A stretch of DNA of 64,000 bases from Chitinophaga sp. MM2321. GTDB taxonomy: Bacteria; Bacteroidota; Bacteroidia; Chitinophagales; Chitinophagaceae. How positions within the stretch are numbered: position 1 is the first letter of the stretch; each line of letters opens with the position of its first letter. This document shows, in pieces, positions 1,939-63,411 of this stretch. The notes beneath the pieces were generated by a model that saw nothing but the letters and a program-made list of their open reading frames with translations, was not told where the DNA came from and ran no database searches. The DNA is taken from positions 1,612,001 through 1,676,000 of the forward strand of contig NZ_OZ035533.1 of assembly GCF_964033635.1 (NCBI RefSeq), given 5' to 3'. Both the position numbers and the translations under genes were made by a program.

Positions 1939-3858
1939 ATGGTAAAGCTGTTGCAGTTAGTTGCCTGTTTGTTACTGGCAATGTCATGTGCGCCTGTCTT
2001 TGCGGGCGGCCCCGTATACCCCGTAAATACAATTCCCGATTCGTTAAAAAAGGATGCACACCTGGTAAAAAGATTTGAAGAGTTTACACTGAATATTGTT
2101 GACCTGCAAAAGGTGCGTATTAACCACCACTATATATTGACGGTACTGGATGAAGAAGGTGCGAAATATACGCAGCTGCAGGAGAGATATAGTAAACAGA
2201 TAGAAGTCAGATCAATCAGCGGGGCTTTATATGATGCCTCAGGAAAGCTGATGACACGATTAAAACAAAGTAGCATTCAGGATATAGGCCAGCAGAGAGA
2301 TGGTAGCTTGATGACGGATACACGATATAAGGTGCATCAGTTTAGCAACAGCGTATATCCGTATACGGTAGAATACGAAGTGGAACAGCAGTTTAACTAT
2401 TCCTACAGTCTTCCTTTCTGGATAGCGCAGGATTACAGGGATGGTGCCGTGGAGCAGGCACGCTTCATCGTAAATGCGCCTGCGGACTATAAGCTACGGT
2501 ATCATACTTTCAGCAACATCGGAGAACCGGTAATAACAACAGAGAAGGAGCGGAAATTATATAAATGGGAAGTGCATAATATTCCTGTTGGCAGGCGGGA
2601 AGTATTTTCAGAAAGCTGGTACCGCCTTACGCCAGGTGTAGAGCTGGCGCCCAGTAATTTTGAATGGGGCCGCTATAAAGGCAGTATGAACACCTGGGAA
2701 GACTTCGGCCAGTTTGGTTATCAGTTGAATGAAGGGCGCGATGTATTGCCGGATGCCATGAAGCAAAAGGTGAGTGAACTGGTAGCAGGTCTCTCCACAA
2801 AGGAAGAAAAGATCCGGGTACTTTACAGGTACCTGCAACAAAACTATCGTTACATCAGTATTCAGCTGGGCATAGGAGGACTACAGACATTTGATGCTAA
2901 AACAGTGGCAGCAAACGGCTATGGCGATTGTAAAGCATTGTCTAATTATATGATGGCGATGCTGAAGGAGGCAGGCATCAAATCCAATTGTGTGTGGGTG
3001 AAGGCTGGTGAAGGAGATATCCGGTTGGACGAAAGTTTTCCGCACGATGGATTTAACCACGTTATTTTGTGCGTTCCCGGCGTCAAAGATACCACCTGGC
3101 TGGAGTGTACTGATAATACCTTACCTGCGGGTTATCTCAGCGGTTTTACTGCTGGCCGGCCCGTACTTATTTTAGATGAGAAAGGCCCCCAACTGATACA
3201 TACACCTGCCAGCAATATGGACATGAACCAGCAACGCAGGAGCATTCATGCTGTACTGGATGAAAAAGGCAATATGAAGGTGGACGCAGTTACTACGCGA
3301 ACAGGTCTGGAGCAGGATGATCTTCACAGCCGTCTCCATCAACTCAGTAAAGAGCAGCAGCTGGAGCGGTTGCGTAGCAGTCTGAATATAGCCAGCTACG
3401 ATGTGACAGGATATGAATGTACGGAAGCTGAAACAGCAAACCCCTCCATAGAAGAGCATATGCAGCTTGCCTGCAACAACTATGCAACGGTAACGGGCAA
3501 ACGAATATTCCTGACACCCAATATGTTAAACAGGAGCATCCCGAAGCTGGAACCTGATGAAGACCGCATATCTGATATTCAGCTTAATTATGAATACCGC
3601 CATGTGGATTCTGTGAGCATCACCATTCCACAGGGCTACAAGGCGGAGGCACTACCCGCACCGGTTATGATTTCAGGTAAATTCGGCAACTACGTGGCTA
3701 CTACTGCTGTTAATGGTAATACAGTCACCTATATACGCACTATACAGCATAAATCAGGCATCTTCCCTGCTGCTGATTTCCCTGAGTTGGTAACCTTTTA
3801 TAACGGTATTTTCAGGGCAGACAGGAGCAGGGTGGTGCTGGTCAAAGACCAGGATTAA
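1939..3858 (+). CDS. Secreted DUF3857 and transglutaminase-like domain protein
   Basis: 639 residues with an N-terminal signal peptide (hydrophobic stretch about 5-20, cleavage near VFAGG), so exported, probably to the periplasm. It has a DUF3857 domain (about 50-230) followed by a transglutaminase-like core. A complete Cys-His-Asp triad is visible: Cys331 in GYGDCKAL, His374 in DGFNHVIL and Asp392 in ECTDNT. A thiol acyl-transfer or protease-like activity is possible; the substrate is unknown in this family. It follows the degenerate paralogue by 3 bases. The last residues (KDQD) and the stop codon lie inside the left arm of a long inverted repeat. Confidence 0.8.
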   Translation: MVKLLQLVACLLLAMSCAPVFAGGPVYPVNTIPDSLKKDAHLVKRFEEFTLNIVDLQKVRINHHYILTVLDEEGAKYTQLQERYSKQIEVRSISGALYDASGKLMTRLKQSSIQDIGQQRDGSLMTDTRYKVHQFSNSVYPYTVEYEVEQQFNYSYSLPFWIAQDYRDGAVEQARFIVNAPADYKLRYHTFSNIGEPVITTEKERKLYKWEVHNIPVGRREVFSESWYRLTPGVELAPSNFEWGRYKGSMNTWEDFGQFGYQLNEGRDVLPDAMKQKVSELVAGLSTKEEKIRVLYRYLQQNYRYISIQLGIGGLQTFDAKTVAANGYGDCKALSNYMMAMLKEAGIKSNCVWVKAGEGDIRLDESFPHDGFNHVILCVPGVKDTTWLECTDNTLPAGYLSGFTAGRPVLILDEKGPQLIHTPASNMDMNQQRRSIHAVLDEKGNMKVDAVTTRTGLEQDDLHSRLHQLSKEQQLERLRSSLNIASYDVTGYECTEAETANPSIEEHMQLACNNYATVTGKRIFLTPNMLNRSIPKLEPDEDRISDIQLNYEYRHVDSVSITIPQGYKAEALPAPVMISGKFGNYVATTAVNGNTVTYIRTIQHKSGIFPAADFPELVTFYNGIFRADRSRVVLVKDQD

Positions 3859-3995
3859 AGGATTATAGGATTTTACGGATGGGTGTTTTGTTGTTTGTAC
3901 TGATTAATTATAATATCTGCTATAGCAAAATCATATAAACATAATACAAACAACAAAACACCCATCCGTAAAATCCTATAATCCTTTAATCCTGG
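3849..3995. repeat. Long perfect inverted repeat (51-base arms) between convergent genes
   Basis: Bases 3849-3899 are the exact reverse complement of 3945-3995, with a 45-base AT-rich loop between. The left arm includes the last codons and stop of the upstream gene; the right arm ends one base before the stop of the minus-strand gene at 3997. The arm has a period of about 8 (AGGATTAA, AGGATTAT, AGGATTTT, ACGGATGG). It could act as a bidirectional terminator or mRNA 3'-end stabiliser. The same word order recurs after the GH35 gene (from 41705) and a related form occurs at 35397. Confidence 0.9.
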
Positions 3996-3996
3996 T

Positions 3997-5280
3997 TTAT
4001 TTTTCCCTTACACTCACCGAAATATGCCGGTCTTTCTTTCTGTCTGCATCCGGTGCATCTGCGGCTGCTTTGGCAAATTGTGAACCGTATCCTTCGGCGC
4101 CCAGCAGTTGTTGGGCATCTGCATTTAATCTTTTCAGGGCGGAGACTACTGATTCGGCACGGTCCTTCGACAGATTCAGGTTCAGGGTGCTGTCGCCGGT
4201 ACGGTCGGTGTAGCCGCCAATTTTTATTTTTGATTTGGGAAATGCTTTCAGGATGGCGGCAATATTGCTTACCTGTTTCATGCTTTCTTCGGTTAAGTCA
4301 GCACTGCCTGTTTTGAAATTGAGGTTATCAAAATCAAACCATACATCTTTGCCGGCTTTCTGCGCATCGTCTTTCAGGAAGGTGACAAGTTGATCTTCAA
4401 TACCACCTTTGTATGCCTGTAGTACTGTTCCATCGGGCAATGTTACCTGGATGCTTTCACGGGTGACAACCGGACCGCCTTCCGTTACATTCATTACGGC
4501 GGAATCGGCCAGTTGACTGGTGGTGACGCTGTCAGTCACGAGGGTGCTGTCGTGCCTGGTGCCGCCGCAACCTTTCATCAGGTACCATAACAGGATAATG
4601 GCCACCAGAATCAGGAGTAAAGACCACAGCCAACGGCTGCTGCTGCCCTGTTTAACGCTATTGATGGTGGTATTGGCTACCCCGGCAGCTCCGCCACCAA
4701 GACCCGCTGTGAGGTTACCCAGTTTTTTGCCCAGGTCACCAAGACTTGTCAGACCCAGGATACCGGCCAGGTTAAGACCACCAGGTACAGCTCCCAGTAT
4801 TTTATCTTTTTGGGTGTTGAGATAAGTAAGAAAAGAGCTGGGTGTGAGATTGTTTTGAATGGCATGTTGCCCTGCAACGCCCAGTGTTGCAGGAGCCGCA
4901 GTTTGCAATAAGGTGCTGGCTGATGATTCCTTGATACCGGCAAAGGTGGACAGCATGCCGGTGATAGCAGTTATTTTATCTCCAAAAAGACTACGTAATA
5001 AATCACCTCCCTTGGCCACCAGGCCACCACCCCCACCTTGCAGTGCGCTGGTGATCGCAGTAGGACTGGCATCTCCGGCTACACCTTTCAGCATATCCAG
5101 CAAGCCACCTGTATCGCCGGTAGACCCTGCTTTGTTCAACAGCCCCGCCAATACCATCGGTACAATCCCTCCCAAGGCTTTCTGTATGCCGCCCTCACTT
5201 TCTCCCAGCTGAGAGGAAGCCTGGCTAACGACATTGTTGTTAAAAAGACTTTTGGCACTTTCTAGTAAGTCGAATGACAT
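3997..5280 (-). CDS. DUF937 domain protein with C-terminal OmpA-like peptidoglycan-binding domain
   Basis: 427 residues. The N-terminal half (about 1-200) is a Gly/Leu-rich DUF937-type region, followed by one membrane segment (about 218-236, WLWSLLLILVAIILLWYLM) ending in KGCGG. The C-terminal 120 residues form an OmpA_C domain with the motif GGYTDRTGDSTLNLNLSKDR, which in this family binds peptidoglycan diaminopimelate. The segment before the OmpA domain has the FDFDNLNFKTGSADLT strand expected of it. There is no cleavable signal; the cytoplasmic DUF937 part and periplasmic OmpA part would be joined by the helix. Function unknown; probably envelope associated. It is the only minus-strand gene between two intergenic hairpins. 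Confidence 0.8.
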   Translation of the reverse strand: MSFDLLESAKSLFNNNVVSQASSQLGESEGGIQKALGGIVPMVLAGLLNKAGSTGDTGGLLDMLKGVAGDASPTAITSALQGGGGGLVAKGGDLLRSLFGDKITAITGMLSTFAGIKESSASTLLQTAAPATLGVAGQHAIQNNLTPSSFLTYLNTQKDKILGAVPGGLNLAGILGLTSLGDLGKKLGNLTAGLGGGAAGVANTTINSVKQGSSSRWLWSLLLILVAIILLWYLMKGCGGTRHDSTLVTDSVTTSQLADSAVMNVTEGGPVVTRESIQVTLPDGTVLQAYKGGIEDQLVTFLKDDAQKAGKDVWFDFDNLNFKTGSADLTEESMKQVSNIAAILKAFPKSKIKIGGYTDRTGDSTLNLNLSKDRAESVVSALKRLNADAQQLLGAEGYGSQFAKAAADAPDADRKKDRHISVSVREK

Positions 5281-18472: not shown

Positions 18473-18631
18473 GCGGTCGATGAATTATTATATCACAACA
18501 AAAATAGGGTTAAACAATCAAATCTACAAAGGCACTATTACCGCAATGTTGATTAACTGGCTTCCTGACTGAATTATCCCTCATAAAAACAGGTGAACTT
18601 ACTGCAAAGGCCGTTAACAAAGCGTTAAAAT

Positions 18632-18734
18632 ATTTATGAATTTTTTGATTTTGATATGTAGGAATTTTGTTTCTCAAAGGAAACTCCTACTGGAAACAAA
18701 ATATCTACATATCAAAATCAAAAAATTCATAAAT
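18632..18734. repeat. Long inverted repeat downstream of phoH (30-base arms plus inner 10-bp stem)
   Basis: 18632-18661 is the exact reverse complement of 18705-18734. After a 2x2 internal loop, 18664-18673 pairs with 18693-18702. The right arm ends 6 bases after the phoH stop at 18741. The words (ATTTATGAATTTTTTGATTTTG) resemble the other AT-rich repeats in the window. Confidence 0.9.
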
Positions 18735-18740
18735 GTTTAT

Positions 18741-19694
18741 TTAATCCTTATTGGCCTCATAAGCCCTGATAATGGCTTTTACAAGCTTATGTCTTACCAC
18801 ATCTTCTTCATCCAGTTCTACAGAACCGATTCCTTCTACATTACGCAGGATCCGGGTTGCTTTTTCAAGGCCCGACTTCTGGTTTTTAGGGAGATCGATC
18901 TGCGTAAGATCACCGGTGATGATAGCTTTGGCAGAGGCACCTATACGGGTAAGGAACATTTTGATCTGCAAATCGGTGGCGTTTTGGGCCTCATCCAGGA
19001 TAATAAAGGAATTATCCAGGGTACGGCCGCGCATATACGCTAACGGGGCTATTTCAATAACACGGTTAGTCATATAATAAGTCAGCTTTTCCGCAGGGAT
19101 CATATCATCCAGCGCATCATACAATGGCCGCAGATAGGGATCAATCTTCTCTTTTAAGTCACCCGGAAGGAATCCCAGGCTTTCACCTGCTTCTACCGCC
19201 GGACGGGTAAGAATGATCTTTTTTACTGCTTTGTTTTTGAGTGCACGTACGGCCAGTGCAACGGCTGTATAGGTTTTACCGGTACCGGCAGGACCTATCG
19301 CAAATACAATGTCATTTTTGTCGGCCAACGCTACCATCTTTTTCTGATTGGCAGTGCGTGCCCTCACAGTACGGGCATTTGGACCAAACACCAGGACCTC
19401 ATTGGGATTACGGTCGCTGAAATGATCGATCTTCGTCCCTTCCTCATCTCCCAGGATCTGTTCAAAATAATTTTCAGTAAGATTACCATTGCGCTCCAGG
19501 TACTTAACGATCTGGCTTATCTTTCCTTCTGCTGTAGCCACTTCTTCCGGTGCCCCACTCAATTTTAACTGGGTACCCCTGGACAGGATCTTTAACAAAG
19601 GGAATTTCTTTTTCAGCAAATCCAGCTTTCCGTTGTTCACGCCGAAAAACTCTAAGGGATTAATACTTTCTAAGTTGATAATGGATTCAGTCAA
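18741..19694 (-). CDS. PhoH family ATPase
   Basis: 317 residues, typical length. The C-terminal about 210 residues are a P-loop NTPase with Walker A GPAGTGKTYTA and Walker B FIILDEAQNA, plus the PhoH signatures TRPAVEAGESLGFLPGD and EIAPLAYMRGRTL. The N-terminal about 95 residues include a KH-like segment (FPLLKILSRGTQLKLSGAPEEVATAE), which fits RNA binding. The family is implicated in RNA metabolism and stress, but no firm reaction is established. Its stop is followed at once by a long inverted repeat. Confidence 0.9.
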   Translation of the reverse strand: MTESIINLESINPLEFFGVNNGKLDLLKKKFPLLKILSRGTQLKLSGAPEEVATAEGKISQIVKYLERNGNLTENYFEQILGDEEGTKIDHFSDRNPNEVLVFGPNARTVRARTANQKKMVALADKNDIVFAIGPAGTGKTYTAVALAVRALKNKAVKKIILTRPAVEAGESLGFLPGDLKEKIDPYLRPLYDALDDMIPAEKLTYYMTNRVIEIAPLAYMRGRTLDNSFIILDEAQNATDLQIKMFLTRIGASAKAIITGDLTQIDLPKNQKSGLEKATRILRNVEGIGSVELDEEDVVRHKLVKAIIRAYEANKD

Positions 19695-24201: not shown

Positions 24202-25212
24202 TTATTTGCTGAGTCTTTTTATGGCATCTTTGGCTTCGGTAAAATCTTTTTTAAAGGAAGTTGCTTTTATGTAATCAGCGATGGCTTCCTGTTTATTGCC
24301 CAGTTGTTCCTGGCAAAGGCCCCGGTAATAGTAAGCCTGTGCATCAGTAGGGGCGGATTTTGCCGCCAGGTTATAAAAGCTGAATGCTTCTTTCCACTGC
24401 TTTTTACCGCTGTAGATCTTTCCCAGCGCCAGGTAAGCCGGTTCATAACCGGGGTCTGAAATAATACATTGCCGGTATGCGGCAATAGCGGCGGCCTGGT
24501 TGCCCAGTTCCTCCTGGTATTGCGCTGCCTCATATAAGGGAGTGGCATTAAGGGAATCCAGTTGCCAGGCCTGTCTATAAAACTGAATCGCTGCCGGTTG
24601 TTTACGTGCCCGTAACAGATCGCCCAGTTCCATTACGGCTTCATACTCCGGATGGGGGCCTGCTGCGCTGATAGCTGTGGTGAGGTGTTTGATGGCGGTT
24701 GTTGTATCCTGCTGATCTTCTGCTATCCTGGCTTTCAGGTAAAAAGCCTTGTCGCGTGCATCTTTCGTTTGTGCGAGCACGTTAGCCATGCTATCGGCCT
24801 GCGGATATTTTTTGTTTTCAATCATGGCTGTAGCGAGCCTGTATTCCAGGTACGTATAGCCGGGGGCGGTAGTTAGTGCTTTCCTGAAAAATATTTCTGC
24901 ATGCGGGTAGTCATCACTTACCAGTGCCGCTTCACCGGCGCCGGCCCAATAGTCTGCATTGTCTGGTTGCAGGCTGGCAGCCTTTTCAAAATCTGCCTGC
25001 GCCAGCGTAGGATTTGTATTGAACAGTAATAAGGCACGACGGTAATACAACGCAGGTTGATCCGGAAACCGCCTGATAGAATCTGTCACCGGCCGGATAA
25101 TATCGCTGTAAAGCACGCTATCCGGAGCGGGTGACTGGTCTTGCTGATTATTGCCGGTATTGTTACAGGCAACAGCGCCCAGCAACACCAGGAGGATCGA
25201 TAAATACTTCAT
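24202..25212 (-). CDS. TPR-repeat lipoprotein
   Basis: 336 residues. The signal sequence ends in the lipobox LGAVAC (Cys16), so it is lipid-anchored in the envelope. From about residue 50 to the end it consists of consecutive tetratricopeptide repeats (PALYYRRALLLFNTNPTLAQADFEKAASLQ, ADYWAGAGEAALVSDDYPHAEIFFRKALT, AYYYRGLCQEQLGNKQEAIADYIKATS). A scaffold or protein-interaction role is likely; the partner is unknown. It lies 24 bases after thrC and 22 before rpe on the same strand, so it rides in the threonine operon without obvious functional reason. Confidence 0.82.
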   Translation of the reverse strand: MKYLSILLVLLGAVACNNTGNNQQDQSPAPDSVLYSDIIRPVTDSIRRFPDQPALYYRRALLLFNTNPTLAQADFEKAASLQPDNADYWAGAGEAALVSDDYPHAEIFFRKALTTAPGYTYLEYRLATAMIENKKYPQADSMANVLAQTKDARDKAFYLKARIAEDQQDTTTAIKHLTTAISAAGPHPEYEAVMELGDLLRARKQPAAIQFYRQAWQLDSLNATPLYEAAQYQEELGNQAAAIAAYRQCIISDPGYEPAYLALGKIYSGKKQWKEAFSFYNLAAKSAPTDAQAYYYRGLCQEQLGNKQEAIADYIKATSFKKDFTEAKDAIKRLSK

Positions 25213-34647: not shown

Positions 34648-35397
34648 ATGAAGCGTCTTATAGTTTTAGTCTTGATGATGTGGTGTGCAGGTCAAACATC
34701 TGCCCAACAGTCTTTCCTCGATAATCAGAAAATGTTTCCCAAAGTGGGAGAAGCTTATCGTGAAAAAGAGGAGCTGCTGAAAAAGGAGTTTGCGAAGAAA
34801 GGACTGGCTTATCCCGCCAGGTATATGTTTGTGCGTTCCTTTAAGCTGGACAGTGAAATGGAGATCTGGGTGAAAAACAATGCAGCTGATACATTCCAGC
34901 TTTTTAAATCCTACCGGGTGTGTACCCTGTCGGGTAAGATGGGGCCCAAAAGGAAAGAAGGCGACCGCCAGGTGCCGGAAGGGTTCTATTATATTAATGA
35001 CTTCAATCCAAATAGTAACTATCACTTATCACTCGGGATCAACTATCCCAATTTCTCCGACCGTATCCTGAGCGATGCCAAAAGGCCAGGGGGTGAAATC
35101 TATATTCACGGCAACTGCATTACAGTAGGATGTATTCCATTGACAGACGAGTTTATCGATGAAGTGTATATCCTGGCCGTAAATGCCAAGAATGCAGGTC
35201 AGGACTTTATCCCGGTGCATGTTTTCCCGGTAAAGTTCGGTAATGTCAGGTCTATGGATTACCTCGGTAATGTTTCGCTGACAGATAATTCATCCCAACA
35301 GTTCTGGGTAGAACTTAAAACGGCATACGACTATTTTGAAAAACACCATCGCCTGCCGGTAGTACTGGTAGACGATAAAGGCAAATACATCATGTGA
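34648..35397 (+). CDS. L,D-transpeptidase family protein (YkuD/YafK-like)
   Basis: 249 residues with a signal peptide (hydrophobic 3-17, cleavage near TSAQQ). The YkuD catalytic motif is IHGNCITVGCIPL with His154 and nucleophile Cys162. The layout (long N-terminal region, KVGEAYREKEELLKKEFAKKG) resembles the YafK/ErfK subgroup. It acts in the periplasm on peptidoglycan: forming or removing 3-3 cross-links or attaching or releasing proteins. The precise reaction cannot be told from sequence. Its stop codon sits at the start of an inverted repeat. Confidence 0.88.
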   Translation: MKRLIVLVLMMWCAGQTSAQQSFLDNQKMFPKVGEAYREKEELLKKEFAKKGLAYPARYMFVRSFKLDSEMEIWVKNNAADTFQLFKSYRVCTLSGKMGPKRKEGDRQVPEGFYYINDFNPNSNYHLSLGINYPNFSDRILSDAKRPGGEIYIHGNCITVGCIPLTDEFIDEVYILAVNAKNAGQDFIPVHVFPVKFGNVRSMDYLGNVSLTDNSSQQFWVELKTAYDYFEKHHRLPVVLVDDKGKYIM

Positions 35398-35505
35398 CCA
35401 GGATTATAGTGATTATAAAGATTTACAGGATTGAACAAGGAGAATAGTGCGGATATCTTCGCCTGCATCTCCAGGTTCAATCCTGTAAATCTTTATAATC
35501 CTGGT
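35397..35505. repeat. Inverted repeat of the CCAGGATTA class
   Basis: The left arm (35397-35408 plus 35418-35436) matches the reverse complement of 35475-35505 (31 bases). The left arm carries an extra 9 bases (35409-35417, GTGATTATA) that look like a local unit duplication. The left arm begins with the last base of the transpeptidase stop. Loop of 38 bases. It starts with CCAGGATTA, as do the elements at 3849 and 41705. Confidence 0.85.
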
Positions 35506-36276: not shown

Positions 36277-37974
36277 ATGAACCTGAATATAAAAGCGCAG
36301 GAACAGAACACCTACGATGCGATCGTGATCGGCTCCGGTGTGAGTGGTGGCTGGGCTGCCAAAGAATTGACCGAAAAAGGTCTGAAAGTGTTAATGCTGG
36401 ACCGTGGTAAGCCACTGGAACACGTGAAAGACTATGATACCGCTACCAAAGATCCGTGGGAATTTAAACACCGCGGCCGTATAACCGTAGAACAGCGGGA
36501 AACCCATCCCAAGCTGAGCCGCGACTATCCTTATAGTGAACACAACGAAAAATTCTGGATCAACGATTCAGAAAGTCCATACAACGAGGTAAAACGTTTT
36601 GACTGGTACCGCCCGGATATTGTGGGTGGTAAATCCATTATGTGGGGCCGTCAGTCGTACCGCCTGAGCGACATCGATTTTGAAGCCAACCTGAAAGATG
36701 GTATCGCCGTAGACTGGCCTATCCGTTATAAAGATATTGCTCCCTGGTACGATTATGTAGAGAAATTTGCAGGTATCAGCGGAACAAAGGAAGGCTTGCC
36801 ACAATTACCTGACGGACAGTTTATGCCCGCCATGGAAATGAACTGTGTAGAGAAAGATGTAAAGAAAAGTGTGGAAACCGCCTTCAAGGGCCGTATCATC
36901 ACCATGGGACGTGTAGCGAATATCACGCAGCCGCTTCCCGGCCGTGAGGCGTGCCAGTTCCGTAACCTGTGTAGCCGCGGTTGTCCTTTCGGCGCTTATT
37001 TCAGTACACAATCATCTACGCTGCCAGCAGCAGTAGCTACCGGCAACCTTACGCTCCGCCCTGACTCCATCGTAAATTCAATTATCTATGATGAGAAAGC
37101 AGGAAAAGCGACCGGCGTAAAAGTGATCGATAAGCACACCAAGGAAATGGTGGAATACTATGCTAAAATCATCTTTATCAATGGTTCTACGCTGGGCTCT
37201 ACTTTTGTGATGATGAACTCCACATCTTCCCGCTTCCCTAACGGATTGGGTAATGACAGTGGCGTACTGGGCAAATACCTGATGGATCACCATTTCCGTA
37301 CAGGGGCTTCCGGTACCGCAGATGGTTATGATGATAAATACTTCTTTGGCCGTCGCGCTAACGGGATCTATGTACCCCGTTATCGTAACATCGGCAAAGA
37401 TAAACGTGATTATCTCCGTGGTTTCGGTTACCAGGGTGGCGCCAGCCGCCAGGGTTGGAGCCGTGGTATTGCAGAAATGGGCGTAGGTAAAGACTTCAAA
37501 GAAATGCTGACCGAACCAGGCAAATGGAGCATGGGATTAGGTGGCTTCGGTGAATGCTTACCTTATGAAGATAACAGGGTTACCCTCGATACATCTGTAA
37601 AAGATGCATGGGGACAACCAGTGCTGAAATTTGACGCTGAGTTTAAGGAGAATGAAAAGAAAATGCGTGTAGACATGATGAATGACGCAGCAGAAATGCT
37701 GGAAGCTGCCGGTATCAAGAACGTCAAAACTTATGACAACGGTTCTTATCCTGGTATGGCTATTCATGAAATGGGTACTGCACGTATGGGTCGCGATCCT
37801 AAAACATCCGTACTCAATGGTTACAACCAGATGCACGCCGTAAAGAATGTGTTCGTTACAGATGGTGCCGCCATGACTTCCACTGCATGTGTGAACCCAT
37901 CCCTCACTTACATGGCCCTGACAGCACGTGCCGCTGATTATGCTGTGAAAGAACTGAAGAAAGGCAATATCTAA
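36277..37974 (+). CDS. GMC family oxidoreductase (gluconate/sugar dehydrogenase flavoprotein type), copy 1
   Basis: 565 residues. The FAD-binding Rossmann motif is Gly19-x-Gly21-x-x-Gly24 (VIGSGVSGGWAAKEL). Near the C-terminus, HEMGTARMGRDPKTSVLN and CVNPSLTYMALTARAADYA hold the conserved His and Asn of GMC enzymes. Cys residues in CQFRNLCSRGCPFG match the iron-sulphur-like motif of this subfamily. No signal peptide: it could be exported with the Tat-bearing subunit 3 partner just upstream. Substrate (a sugar or sugar acid) cannot be fixed. A near-identical second copy follows, separated by a long inverted repeat. Confidence 0.88.
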   Translation: MNLNIKAQEQNTYDAIVIGSGVSGGWAAKELTEKGLKVLMLDRGKPLEHVKDYDTATKDPWEFKHRGRITVEQRETHPKLSRDYPYSEHNEKFWINDSESPYNEVKRFDWYRPDIVGGKSIMWGRQSYRLSDIDFEANLKDGIAVDWPIRYKDIAPWYDYVEKFAGISGTKEGLPQLPDGQFMPAMEMNCVEKDVKKSVETAFKGRIITMGRVANITQPLPGREACQFRNLCSRGCPFGAYFSTQSSTLPAAVATGNLTLRPDSIVNSIIYDEKAGKATGVKVIDKHTKEMVEYYAKIIFINGSTLGSTFVMMNSTSSRFPNGLGNDSGVLGKYLMDHHFRTGASGTADGYDDKYFFGRRANGIYVPRYRNIGKDKRDYLRGFGYQGGASRQGWSRGIAEMGVGKDFKEMLTEPGKWSMGLGGFGECLPYEDNRVTLDTSVKDAWGQPVLKFDAEFKENEKKMRVDMMNDAAEMLEAAGIKNVKTYDNGSYPGMAIHEMGTARMGRDPKTSVLNGYNQMHAVKNVFVTDGAAMTSTACVNPSLTYMALTARAADYAVKELKKGNI

Positions 37975-37975
37975 T

Positions 37976-38051
37976 ATTTGGGGATTTTGGAATTTGGAGA
38001 TGTAGATATTTTGTTGAAATACTACATCTCTGAATTCCAAAATCTCTAAAT
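37976..38051. repeat. 30-bp stem with G-U wobbles between the two GMC genes
   Basis: 37976-38005 pairs with 38022-38051 across 30 positions: 25 or more are Watson-Crick and the rest are G-U wobbles in the transcript, with a 16-base loop. The stem starts two bases after the stop codon of copy 1. The wobbles at about 37995-37996 match the DNA mismatches (TG against CA), which suggests pairing is kept at RNA level. Words are of the GATTTTGGAATTT class. Confidence 0.8.
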
Positions 38052-38065
38052 CATAAAATGATTTT

Positions 38066-39763
38066 ATGAATCTTAATATAAAAGCGGATAAGGAAAATAA
38101 ATACGACGCAATCGTTGTAGGTTCCGGTATCAGCGGTGGATGGGCTGCAAAAGAGCTTTGTGAAAAGGGGCTGAAAACACTGGTATTGGAAAGAGGCCGT
38201 AACGTGGAGCACGTAAAGGACTATACCACTGCTATGATGGCGCCCTGGGAGTTCAAACACCACCTGAATACGACCAATGAGATGCGCGAAAATCATCCTA
38301 TTCAGAGCCGCTGCTATGCTTTTGATGAAGCTACGCAACAGTTCTGGGTAAATGATAACGAGAATCCCTACAACGAAGTAAAACCTTTCAACTGGCTGCG
38401 TGGCTACCACGTAGGCGGACGTTCCCTCATGTGGGGACGGCAGGTGTATCGTTGGAGTGACCTGGATTTTGAAGCGAATGGAAAAGACGGGCATGGTGTA
38501 GACTGGCCTATCCGTTATAAAGATATTGCGCCCTGGTACGAATACGTGGAAAGATATATCGGTGTAAGCGGACAGGCAGAAGGTTTGCCGCAACTACCCG
38601 ATGGTGTATTCCTTCCACCTATGGAAATGAACTGCCTGGAAAAACATGTGGCAGCGCGTATCAAAGAAAAGTACAACGACCGCATCATGACGATTGGTCG
38701 TGTAGCACACCTGACCAAAGGGTTGAAAGACCGCGGTCCTTGTCAGTACCGTAACCTTTGTGCACGTGGTTGTCCGTATACCGGCTACTTCAGCAGCAAC
38801 GGTGTAACATTACCTGCAGCAGCTGCAACCGGCAACATGACCCTGCGCCCTGATTCCATTGTACTGGAAGTGCTGTATGACAAAGATAAAAGTAAAGCAA
38901 CCGGTGTAAGGGTGATGGACTCCCATACTTTACAAACGGTAGAATATTATGCAGATGTCATTTTCCTGAACGGTTCCACCTTAGGCACCAGCTGGATCAT
39001 GCTGAACTCTATATCTGACCGTTTCCCGAATGGTTTCGGTAATGATAGCGGACAGTTGGGTCATAACCTGATGGATCACCACTTTGGCGTAGGCGCCGGT
39101 GGCGAATTTGATGGCTTTGAAGACCAGTATTTCAACAGCGGTCGCCGGCCTAACGGCGTGTATATTCCGCGCTTCCGTAACACCAATAGCAAAACCATGC
39201 AAAAAGATTACGTGCGTGGATTTGGTTATCAGGGTGGCGCCGGAAGAGGCAGAGGCGCCAGCAGGGAAGGTATCGGCGTAGAGCTGAAAGAAGCTCAGAC
39301 CATACCTGGAAAATGGGGTATGGGCGTTGGTTCATGGGGTGAGCATCTCCCTTACTTTGAAAATAAAGTAGCGATCAACAAAGACAAAAAAGATAAGTAC
39401 GGCCTGCCTACACTCGACATCGACTGTGAGTTTAAAGAAAACGAACTGGCAATGCGCAAGGATATGCAGGAGAGTGCAAAAGAAATGCTGGAAGCAGCGG
39501 GTCTTAAAAATGTACACGGCTACGATAGCGCACCGCCTCCTGGACATTGTATCCATGAAATGGGTACCGCACGTATGGGTCGTGATCCTAAAACATCTGT
39601 GCTCAACGGTTTCAACCAGGTACATGCTGCAAAGAATGTATTTATTACCGATGGCTCATGTATGACTTCCTCCTCCTGTGTGAATCCTTCTATCACCTAT
39701 ATGGCACTCACCGCCAGAGCATGCGACCATGCGATCAGTGAACGCAAAAAAGGAAACATATAA
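38066..39763 (+). CDS. GMC family oxidoreductase, copy 2
   Basis: 565 residues, the same length as copy 1 and similar throughout. The FAD motif is VVGSGISGGWAAKEL, the cysteine motif CQYRNLCARGCPYTGYF, and the C-terminal HEMGTARMGRDPKTSVLNGF and SCVNPSITYMALTARACDH carry the catalytic His and Asn. Differences cluster in the middle substrate-binding part (for example ENHPIQSRCYAFDEATQQ against ETHPKLSRDYPYSEHNEK), so substrate may differ. It arose by tandem duplication. It lies downstream of the single subunit 3 gene, which may serve both copies. Confidence 0.88.
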   Translation: MNLNIKADKENKYDAIVVGSGISGGWAAKELCEKGLKTLVLERGRNVEHVKDYTTAMMAPWEFKHHLNTTNEMRENHPIQSRCYAFDEATQQFWVNDNENPYNEVKPFNWLRGYHVGGRSLMWGRQVYRWSDLDFEANGKDGHGVDWPIRYKDIAPWYEYVERYIGVSGQAEGLPQLPDGVFLPPMEMNCLEKHVAARIKEKYNDRIMTIGRVAHLTKGLKDRGPCQYRNLCARGCPYTGYFSSNGVTLPAAAATGNMTLRPDSIVLEVLYDKDKSKATGVRVMDSHTLQTVEYYADVIFLNGSTLGTSWIMLNSISDRFPNGFGNDSGQLGHNLMDHHFGVGAGGEFDGFEDQYFNSGRRPNGVYIPRFRNTNSKTMQKDYVRGFGYQGGAGRGRGASREGIGVELKEAQTIPGKWGMGVGSWGEHLPYFENKVAINKDKKDKYGLPTLDIDCEFKENELAMRKDMQESAKEMLEAAGLKNVHGYDSAPPPGHCIHEMGTARMGRDPKTSVLNGFNQVHAAKNVFITDGSCMTSSSCVNPSITYMALTARACDHAISERKKGNI

Positions 39764-39765
39764 TT

Positions 39766-39886
39766 ATTTACGGATTTTGGAATTTTGAAATTTAAGGGGA
39801 GATATAAGCGTAATTATCGCTTATATCTCCCCTTAAATTTTTAAATAACTAAATCTGAAAATTCCAAAACCCCTAAATTCGTAAAT
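39766..39886. repeat. Compound inverted repeat downstream of GMC copy 2
   Basis: The inner stem is perfect: 39788-39810 with 39818-39840 (23 bases, 7-base loop). An outer stem pairs ATTTACG (39766-39772) with CGTAAAT (39880-39886) and TTTTGGAATTTT (39775-39786) with AAAATTCCAAAA (39858-39869), with unpaired bases on the right arm (39841-39857 and 39870-39879). It lies between the GMC copy 2 stop (39763) and the GH35 start (39904). Confidence 0.85.
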
Positions 39887-39903
39887 ATTTAATTTACTGA
39901 ACA

Positions 39904-41721
39904 ATGAAAAAACTCATGCTAAGTGGCATGCTGGCGCTATCCTGTTTAATGGGGCAGGCAGTACATGCACAGGGCAAACACTCCTTTGCGTTAAGCAAAA
40001 CAGCATTTTTGCTGGATGGTAAACCTTTCCAGATGATCAGTGGAGAGATGCATCCGGCGCGCATTCCACACGAATACTGGCGGCACCGCATTCAGATGGC
40101 GAAAGCGATGGGATGTAATACCATTGCTGCCTATGTGTTCTGGAATTACCAGGAGCCGGAAAAAGGACAGTTTGACTTTACCACCGGTAATCATAATATC
40201 GCAGCATTTATTAAGATAGCACAGGAAGAAGGTATGTGGGTGATATTGCGCCCTGGTCCTTATGTATGCGCGGAGTGGGAGTTTGGTGGTTTGCCGCCGT
40301 ACCTGTTGCAAACGCCGGACATCAAAGTGCGGTGTATGGACCCACGGTATATGGAAGCTGTAACCAGGTATATAGAACACCTGGCGGCTGAAGTAAAACC
40401 TTTACTGGTAACTAACGGCGGACCAGTGATTATGACACAGATAGAAAATGAATACGGCAGTTATGGCAACGATAAAAACTACCTGTATGCATTAAAAGAT
40501 TTGTGGTTAAAGAATGGTATCAATGTGCCTTTTTATACAGCGGATGGACCCACTGCTTATATGCTGGAAGCAGGCAGTGTGCCTGGAGCAGCAATAGGGC
40601 TGGATTCCGGTGGATCAGAAGCTGATTTTGCCGCCGCTGCCAAACAGAATCCTGATGTACCTTCTTTCAGCAGCGAGTCTTATCCGGGTTGGTTAACCCA
40701 TTGGGGAGAGGAGTGGCAGCGCCCGGGTACAGCAGGTATTGTGAAAGAGGTGAAATTCCTGATGGATACCAAACGTTCTTTCAACCTGTATGTCATTCAT
40801 GGTGGTACCAACTTCGGGTATAGTGCCGGCGCCAATTCCGGTGGCAAAGGATATCAGCCGGATGTAACCAGTTATGATTATGATGCACCGATCAATGAGC
40901 AGGGGAGTGCTACACCGAAATACGAGGCATTGCGCCAGTTACTGGCTTCCTATCTGCCCAAAGGTAAAAAACTGCCGCCTGTTCCTGCCGCGATCCCAGC
41001 CATCAGTTTTCCAGCAGTTACCTTAACACCGTTTACTTCCGTTTGGGATCATTTGCCGGAGGCGGTTCATTCCGTACAGCCGCAACCGTTTGAGTCCTAT
41101 GGACAGGACTACGGTTTTATGGTGTATAAAACTTCGCTTATTGGTCATAAAAGTGGTAAGCTCACCATCAGGGATCTGCATGATTATGCCACGGTGTTTT
41201 TGAATGGAAAATATATAGGTAAGATAGATCGCCGGTTGGGAGAGAAATCTATTGACCTGCCTAAAAGCGACGTGCAAAACCCGGTATTGGAAATACTGGT
41301 AGAAGGAATGGGGCGCATCAATTTTGCAGAAGCCATGATAGATCGTAAAGGGATCACCGACCGTGTGATCCTGAATGGTATGACACTGATGAACTGGGAA
41401 GTATACGGCTTGCCGATGACAGAAAAATATGTATCGGCGTTAACCCCTTCTGCAGATCATGCCACTAAAGCAGGGCAGTTCTTTAAAGCTGCTTTTACCC
41501 TGGATAAAACCGGAGATACCTATATAGATATGTCTGCTTACAAAAAAGGTATTGTATGGGTGAATGGTCATAACCTGGGCCGTTACTGGGAAATAGGGCC
41601 GCAAAAACGGCTGTATTGCCCTGCTCCCTGGCTGAAGAAAGGGGTGAACGAAATTATTGTTTTCGACCTGCACCAGGATGTAGCAGCAGCGGTAAAAGGG
41701 GACCAGGATTTAGAGGATTAA
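39904..41721 (+). CDS. Secreted GH35 beta-galactosidase
   Basis: 605 residues with a signal peptide (hydrophobic 4-17, cleavage near VHAQG). The GH35 catalytic barrel (about 30-350) shows AAYVFWNYQEPEKGQFDF, GPYVCAEWEFGGLP, the acid/base Glu183 in QIENEYGSYG and the nucleophile Glu258 in FSSESYPGW. C-terminal beta-sandwich domains follow (about 400-590). It hydrolyses terminal beta-D-galactose residues from oligo- or polysaccharides in the periplasm. It is downstream of the two oxidoreductases, though separated by a hairpin. It could release galactose for oxidation by those dehydrogenases, but that link is inference. Confidence 0.9.
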   Translation: MKKLMLSGMLALSCLMGQAVHAQGKHSFALSKTAFLLDGKPFQMISGEMHPARIPHEYWRHRIQMAKAMGCNTIAAYVFWNYQEPEKGQFDFTTGNHNIAAFIKIAQEEGMWVILRPGPYVCAEWEFGGLPPYLLQTPDIKVRCMDPRYMEAVTRYIEHLAAEVKPLLVTNGGPVIMTQIENEYGSYGNDKNYLYALKDLWLKNGINVPFYTADGPTAYMLEAGSVPGAAIGLDSGGSEADFAAAAKQNPDVPSFSSESYPGWLTHWGEEWQRPGTAGIVKEVKFLMDTKRSFNLYVIHGGTNFGYSAGANSGGKGYQPDVTSYDYDAPINEQGSATPKYEALRQLLASYLPKGKKLPPVPAAIPAISFPAVTLTPFTSVWDHLPEAVHSVQPQPFESYGQDYGFMVYKTSLIGHKSGKLTIRDLHDYATVFLNGKYIGKIDRRLGEKSIDLPKSDVQNPVLEILVEGMGRINFAEAMIDRKGITDRVILNGMTLMNWEVYGLPMTEKYVSALTPSADHATKAGQFFKAAFTLDKTGDTYIDMSAYKKGIVWVNGHNLGRYWEIGPQKRLYCPAPWLKKGVNEIIVFDLHQDVAAAVKGDQDLED

Positions 41722-41811
41722 CCCGATTTCCCTGATGGTTGTTTTGTTGTTATATAAAAGCGAAGAAATCGTTTGGTACTATTCCAAACGATTTCTTCGC
41801 TTTTATATAAC
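41705..41811. repeat. CCAGGATT-class left arm plus 28-bp perfect hairpin after GH35
   Basis: 41705-41754 follows the same word order as the left arm at 3849 (CCAGGATT, GAGGATTA, GATTT, GATGGTTGTTTTGTTGTT). It overlaps the GH35 C-terminus, giving DQDLED and the stop. It overlaps a separate perfect stem, 41749-41776 with 41784-41811 (28 bases, 7-base loop). The reverse-complement half of the outer element is absent, so only the inner stem can pair. Confidence 0.75.
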
Positions 41812-63293: not shown

Positions 63294-63411
63294 ATTTAGG
63301 AATTTTGTGATTTTGGAATTTTGCGATTTTGTTTTTAGAGCGGGCTTATTACTGAACCTACATAATCAAACCACAAAATCACAAAATTCCAAAATCACAA
63401 AATCCCTAAAT
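63294..63411. repeat. Long inverted repeat of the GATTTTGGAATTTTG class
   Basis: 63294-63337 pairs with 63368-63411 over about 44 positions with a few mismatches (for example at 63302 and 63324) and a 30-base loop. Both arms are a head-to-tail series of GATTTTG and GAATTTTG words. It lies between the CAP-domain gene and the ABC ATPase; the -7 box of the latter begins 6 bases after the right arm. Confidence 0.88.

Follow-up and report, generated by a model that had tools for sequence, protein, structure and literature searches.

Stop-codon-anchored palindromes built of short words at gene 3′ ends in Chitinophaga

The closest described system to the elements reported here, in copy number, placement and species-specificity, is that of the REPINs. 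REP/REPIN sequences are extragenic palindromes found in hundreds of species-specific copies alongside a RAYT transposase (PMC3116915, PMC3733652). GTAG REPs are reported to give flanking open reading frames (ORFs) a TAG stop codon in many cases, in a paper that also mentions Rickettsia palindromic elements (PMC3733652), and in Escherichia coli a link to translation has been described for REPs lying no more than 15 nt from a stop codon (PMC12306157). TAACTGA heptamer repeats of Beggiatoaceae, Cyanobacteria and some Bacteroidetes are direct repeats that lie mostly upstream of start codons (PMC4679880). In Neisseriaceae, DNA uptake sequences (DUS) form dialects, and inverted DUS pairs occur at terminators (PMC3630211). 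Inverted repeats in general peak after stop codons across bacteria, although that survey, limited to perfect repeats with spacers of up to 8 bp, would miss most elements described here (PMC13155455). Conversion of imperfect into perfect palindromes by template switching is cited in PMC4060949. The part covered of a study of Bacteroides transcript ends (PMC7366714) is silent on this structure, and we recognized no paper on word-built stop-codon palindromes in the open-licence PMC literature.

Here we describe palindromes first noticed in a 64,000-nt stretch of the Chitinophaga sp. MM2321 genome (the window; NZ_OZ035533.1, positions 1,612,001 to 1,676,000). The elements are dispersed and positioned at stop codons, their arms are built of words and match within a copy, and the original spacer has been lost where they stand. 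A typical element is a palindrome of about 85–150 bp that occupies the space between one gene's stop codon and either the stop codon or the 5′ leader of its neighbour. On balance we think that they are probably lineage-amplified, stop-codon-anchored and concertedly evolving 3′-end hairpins that stand in place of intrinsic terminators, and we judge them to be dispersed palindromic repeats of a new subtype whose placement resembles that of terminators.

Like REPs and REPINs, the elements are extragenic palindromes of high copy number and species-specific, with inverted pairs that make hairpins and, as with GTAG REPs, a supply of stop codons. They differ in that no Y1 transposase was found in the window's genome, in that their arms are about 50 nt long, composed of 7–9-nt words and copy-specific whereas REPINs have invariant 16-bp ends (PMC3116915), and in that they end in ACCAGG where REPs carry GTAG or CGTC tags; neither such a tag nor ends invariant across copies were seen. 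At one locus, moreover, a close relative has an ordinary terminator in the equivalent gap. Intrinsic (Rho-independent) terminators likewise place a hairpin just past the stop codon, often between convergent genes and with co-varying arms, but the arms here are AT-rich, about 50 nt long and without a U-tract by the rule used, and their edge lies at the stop codon (median 0) rather than a median of 27 nt after it. Rickettsia palindromic elements also add codons to genes, in-frame and inside ORFs, whereas the elements here end the ORF. TAACTGA repeats share the dispersed intergenic arrays of a 7-nt word, the patchy distribution and some positions over stop codons, but they are direct repeats, most often just upstream of start codons, and not mirrored palindromes (PMC4679880). 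DUS share species-specific words and inverted pairs tied to terminators; they are, however, single short words that also occur within genes and mediate uptake (PMC3630211), whereas here arrays of words form palindromes at gene ends.

Palindromes in the window

A sequence-only reading had claimed related inverted arms at three gene ends of the window, and all three sites are real (Table 1). The perfect arms described at site 1 are 52 nt each, 100% complementary and spaced by 45 nt. The 9-base insertion reported at site 2 sits in the left arm and makes a bulge when folded; here the A that opens ACCAGG is also the last base of the TGA of ORF 34648–35397. Site 3, said to be a left half only, is indeed a solitary left arm, overlapping the start of a hairpin that looks like an ordinary terminator. 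At sites 1 and 3 the arm codes the last codons and the stop, as had been stated (KDQD and DQDLED, each followed by TAA). RNA-fold z-scores are −19.6 at site 1, −11.3 at site 2 and −9.8 at site 3, the last due to the separate hairpin and not to the solitary arm. The core of that hairpin, AAGCGAAGA, is similar to inner cores of palindromes in other copies.

The list of three was nevertheless incomplete: a second family, class B, built of ATTTAGG/GATTTACG words, lies at four more gene ends of the window. No Rfam family reached its gathering score within the window, nor did any of 30 matches up to E = 1 at four other loci; the sub-threshold matches are mostly to microRNA models, which reward long hairpins.

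Table 1. Coordinates of palindromes and associated genes in the window
Feature	Position	Strand	Remarks
Site 1 gene (DUF3857/transglutaminase-like), element at its 3′ end	1939..3858	+	C-terminus VLVKDQD
Site 1 left arm (class A, CCAGGATTA words)	3848..3899	+	holds TAA of ORF 1939–3858
Site 1 loop, 45 nt	3900..3944	.	
Site 1 right arm	3945..3996	−	exact reverse complement of left arm; touches stop of ORF 3997–5280 (−)
Convergent gene, DUF937 + OmpA domains	3997..5280	−	stop adjoins site 1
Class B palindrome (ATTT/GATTT words)	18628..18738	.	2 nt from stop of ORF 18741–19694 (−)
Site 2 left arm, one extra 9-nt word	35397..35443	+	
Site 2 right arm	35468..35505	−	
Class B palindrome, imperfect	37976..38051	.	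immediately 3′ of stop of ORF 36277–37974
Class B palindrome, two overlapping pairings	39749..39895	.	covers end of ORF 38066–39763
Site 3 solitary left arm	about 41702 to 41754	+	codes DQDLED + TAA of GH35 gene 39904–41721
Separate perfect 28-bp hairpin beside site 3 arm	41749..41811	.	T-rich sequence after it
Class B palindrome	63294..63411	.	18 nt past stop of ORF 62787–63275

Copies across the genome

The proposal of a dispersed element at gene 3′ ends is borne out by a search of the 6.78-Mb genome with the arm words. CCAGGATTA has 268 matches (130 + 138) as compared with 18 (14 + 4) for the reversed word, and ACCAGGATTA has 213 as compared with 3 for its reversed control, so that copies are not confined to the window. 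Many CCAGGATTA matches are facing pairs that form palindromes, mostly of 105–150 bp, at gene 3′ ends; across 0.876 Mb, CCAGGATT...AATCCTGG occurrences within 300 bp of each other make 28 facing, 5 same-orientation and 1 back-to-back pairs. In 864 kb, half of which was picked around CCAGGATTA matches, 69 long inverted repeats were detected, and one block-shuffled control gave 0. By our own hexamer-based gene calls, these occupy 30 of 127 convergent, 35 of 494 tandem and 4 of 115 divergent gene pairs. We reject a chance origin on these contrasts: 69 repeats against 0 in the shuffled control, 268 CCAGGATTA matches against 18 and 213 ACCAGGATTA matches against 3. Unrelated gene ends have 40–50 bp of arm in common, contrary to what terminators with unrelated arms would give. 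L058 contains a pair of similar class A arms (G000:C1 1080115 and 1080261), 146 bp apart and pointing the same way, neither with a facing partner in the arm list.

Position at stop codons and relation to terminators

The association with stop codons suggested by the window sites holds in contiguous stretches of seven species, to which the edge-to-stop statistics were restricted. The 63 inverted repeats counted there, all with arms of 29 nt or more, separate convergent genes in 25 cases, tandem genes in 35 and divergent genes in 3. Among the 85 edges facing gene 3′ ends, the distance to the stop codon is at most 5 nt for 45 and at most 15 nt for 70 (median 0); ordinary terminators of the window's genome start a median of 27 nt past it (n = 58). 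At convergent pairs the leftover spacer has a median of 0 with an element (n = 25) versus 45 bp without one (n = 182; p = 5e-5). The earlier idea that elements land on, or are copied into, gene 3′ ends thus stands as to the tie to 3′ ends, but they are not simply added to an existing spacer, because that spacer is gone and because, at one locus, a close relative's gap holds an ordinary terminator.

A regular expression for CCAGGATTA picked 74 candidate arms, at least 4 of which look like coding sequence, and 47 of the 74 face a gene end. Of these 47 stop codons, 11 are flush with the CCAGG boundary, 8 end one base before it, 16 end 10–28 nt inside the element and 12 end 2–18 nt before the boundary; the stop is thus often completed, or provided outright, by the element. 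The outer end is conserved, with A at −1 in 69/74 and G at −2 in 55/74. Flanks outside the GACC boundary are usually unlike between the two sides of one copy, on which ground we reject an origin of the palindromes from copying of host flanks alone, with genome position 2013235 as the exception. There (G000:C1 2013235–2013376, L064) the mirror runs 7 bases further, TGAAATA, and the convergent genes have common last bases and TAG; this extended mirror is possibly a product of arm copying.

Ordinary terminators were defined as a GC-rich stem plus U-tract. At convergent ends with a gap above 40 bp, 46 had an element only, 34 a terminator only, 78 neither and 0 both (p = 2e-6, a value that treats the two ends of one gap as separate when they are not independent). 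The elements thus occupy the places of terminators. At tandem ends there is no exclusion (element only 24, terminator only 22, both 2, neither 212; p = 1). In the stretch scanned, 0/46 convergent and 2/26 tandem element ends conform to the GC-stem and U-tract rule; with 0/46, the elements are not ordinary intrinsic terminators. Two class A palindromes (G000:C1 289027–289258, L045, and 450580–450765, L051) have related, ordinary-looking terminators (AAGAAGTCCTGC...GCAGGACTTCTT) in their loops, an arrangement consistent with arms that either grow around a terminator or travel with it.

Arm structure and within-copy matching

The arms are arrays of short words of 7–9 bp. Arm autocorrelation (lags 4–14) peaks at 9 and then 8 in class A, at 8 in class B and G053 and at 7 in G051, G072 and G056. 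In class A the ends read (G)ACCAGG; the outer word alone is near-constant, and inner arms average 65% identity between copies. Alignment of copies revealed that the arms of one copy match each other far better than those of different copies: left and own right arm are 98.6% identical in class A (n = 22) and 97.5% in class B (n = 24), between-copy identity is 65% and 68%, respectively, and no arm of another copy matches as well as the own partner in 22/22 and 24/24 cases, in 46 copies that were found by arm match and are biased accordingly. Pairs picked by the outer 8 bp only show the same tendency, with 15/28 at least 90% identical as compared with 1.3% of between-copy comparisons, two sets of two among the 28 having one partner arm in common; the remaining 13/28 include word-shifted arms and truly unlike arms. 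In G051, comparison of the free 2-nt slots in ten facing AAAGCNN arrays gives agreement in 20/27 cases within a copy and in 66/247 between copies.

Matching arms in a terminator-like position might come about by ordinary convergent evolution, in which selection for stable RNA hairpins and compensatory changes would suffice with no copying between sites. The position, the pairing and the general peak of bacterial inverted repeats after stop codons (PMC13155455) would fit this account. It is nonetheless highly improbable: unrelated gene ends have 40–50 bp in common, as well as inner cores, which leads us to reject independent convergence, and wobble pairs do not dominate the mismatches within arms (G–T 4 and A–C 10 of 25 in class A; G–T 12 and A–C 8 of 30 in class B). 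A mirrored indel speaks against it too. The close relatives G018 and G019 have 92.6% identity across the locus, and two substitutions plus an indel distinguish their hairpins at the site-1 gap, all mirrored, such that the arms stay perfect at 23 and 26 bp; this is an ordinary hairpin, not a word-built element.

Word families among congeners

Congeners carry palindromes placed alike whose arms consist of other 7–9-bp words (such as AATTACG, AAAGCNN, GAATTAA and GATTTACG), and the genus has at least five word families of a common architecture, that of CCAGGATTA among them. Counts of CCAGGATTANNNGGATT are 31 in the window's genome and 30 in G053; of the 77 remaining congeners, 68 lack it and 9 have one or two matches. 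AATTACGAATTACGAATT has 583 matches in G068, 450 in G056 and 259 in G059, with zero in 52/79 genomes; AAAGCNNAAAGCNNAAAGC has 1232 in G051, 522 in G024 and 428 in G089, with zero in 44/79. These counts include overlapping matches in one array and so exceed the numbers of elements; the reversed controls of all three words never gave more than one match per strand. Close relatives differ seven- to elevenfold: AATTACGAATTACGAATT has 64 matches in G044 versus 450 in its sister G056 (support 100/96), and 23 in G058 versus 259 in G059, which fall inside an unresolved group of the tree and are therefore called close relatives, not sisters. The G008 row of that tree is in the wrong reading frame, and G034, G035 and G025, represented by small contigs only, were left out of the analysis. 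An inner core, AAATGCAGCGRAGAT, is found in 26/79 genomes at up to 149 copies (reversed control 0); in G000, G051 and G072 it sits in elements whose outer words differ.

Outside the genus the AATTACG words are scarce. AATTACGAATTACGAATT appears in 11/295 other genomes of the phylum sample, with at most 6 matches each, and the 11 loci scanned there yielded one word-built and one unrelated inverted repeat. A family 18-mer hit 15 stretches of GTDB contigs, a set that may omit the window's own genome, in scattered taxa, where our own estimate by chance is 7–8; two are from Bacteroidota (Chryseobacterium and Muribaculaceae). A 100-kb scan of G026, from another family of the order, gave 0 inverted repeats at score ≥20.

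Such dialects could also reflect protein specificity, the words being putative targets of a protein that binds DNA or RNA, or uptake signals of the Neisseriaceae type, set in inverted arrays at gene ends. A constant word with a free spacer, such as AAAGC + NN, has the look of a binding site, and DUS dialects with inverted pairs at terminators offer a parallel (PMC3630211). Each word is, however, limited to a few congeners, inner cores can be common while outer words differ, and binding does not need mirrored free spacers; we consider this explanation quite unlikely.

Orthologous gene ends in relatives

The gap occupied by site 1 is filled differently from relative to relative: by arms of AATTACG (L082, L088), AAAGC (L098), GATTAGGCT (L091) or AGGATT (L096), by a GC-rich hairpin enclosed in long AT-rich arms (L086), or by an ordinary GC-rich hairpin (for example, L090, L095, L101 and L110); L089 and L092 lack a conserved site-1 gene pair. 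The protein ends change as well, the site-1 gene product ending in VLVKE in several relatives and VLVKDQD in the window, and the GH35 product in VKGLETLD in L120, for example, versus VKGDQDLED. In this comparison L106 of the first 30 loci and 9 of the second 30 show a neighbouring gene or none, because minus-strand loci kept their original orientation.

Comparison of eight G059 element loci with G058 (flanks 86–94% identical) found elements absent, decayed, common to both or opposite an ordinary terminator. Two G059 elements are missing from G058, with about 1.5 words left (L251, 85 bp; L257, 139 bp). G058 has degenerate words only at L240 and has diverged at L256; at L263 the element is common to both with a different number of words; the L246 element lies in a 0.8-kb block absent from G058, and L267 had no match in the G058 stretch fetched. 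At one locus only, between the same two genes, an element of G059 (L259) stands opposite an ordinary intrinsic terminator of G058 (L274).

Presence and absence at two loci between close relatives is also what a MITE- or REPIN-like mobile palindrome, moved by some transposase, would leave behind, were it to insert at or next to stop codons with the bias arising from target choice and selection for a kept stop. Bursts in single lineages, the 40–50 bp common to unrelated sites and the conserved outer end (A at −1 in 69/74, G at −2 in 55/74) point the same way, and the defined outer ends, GACCAGG, fit insertion at least as well as they fit terminator-replacing hairpins. Against insertion, the Y1 (RAYT-type) transposase model PF01797 has 0 matches in the whole genome while 5/14 control genomes score, the spacer is gone rather than interrupted, no target duplication is evident by eye at the candidate-arm flanks or the two absent sites, and the match between arms of a copy exceeds what a family consensus requires. 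We regard a mobile palindrome as rather unlikely.

The reading as 3′-end hairpins in place of terminators is supported by the dispersal, stop position, word-built and matching arms and lost spacer, together with the mutual exclusion of elements and ordinary terminators at convergent ends, the L259/L274 contrast, the mirrored changes in the G018/G019 hairpin and the variable word number at L263. Weighing against it are the 0/46 convergent element ends with a GC stem and U-tract, the lack of exclusion at tandem ends, the 13/28 outer-word pairs below 90% identity and the fact that the mirrored change belongs to an ordinary hairpin. A stronger version, in which an undescribed class of palindromes with rapidly changing 7–9-bp words of each species' own, word-built arms and inter-arm copying overwrites the inter-stop stretch and displaces the terminator, is put forward tentatively, as somewhat doubtful.

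If the hairpin reading is right, words would be gained and lost through slippage of 7–9-nt units, the two arms would be held alike by hairpin-templated (template-switch) copying, and copies would move between gene ends by some copying process. The elements may end or protect transcripts, the transcribed hairpin acting at mRNA 3′ ends and, at convergent genes, in both directions. The gene-end slot, occupied here by an ordinary terminator and there by one or another kind of word-built palindrome, forms a natural series in which concerted arm evolution through template switching and terminator turnover become directly testable in close relatives. Repeat elements of this kind can supply stops and rewrite protein C-termini at many loci, VLVKE in several relatives versus VLVKDQD here being an example, and predictors keyed to a GC stem and U-tract would overlook such 3′ ends.

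Palindromes of another kind also occur in the genus. Contig C2 of G053 carries GC-rich intergenic palindromic repeats at 24895–25098, 74964–75104 and 194672–194822 (L142, L144 and L150), of CCCCTACGGGG and also CCCGGG...CCCGGG types, and a GGGGTTTTAACCCC repeat at G000:C1 144746–145035 resembles them.
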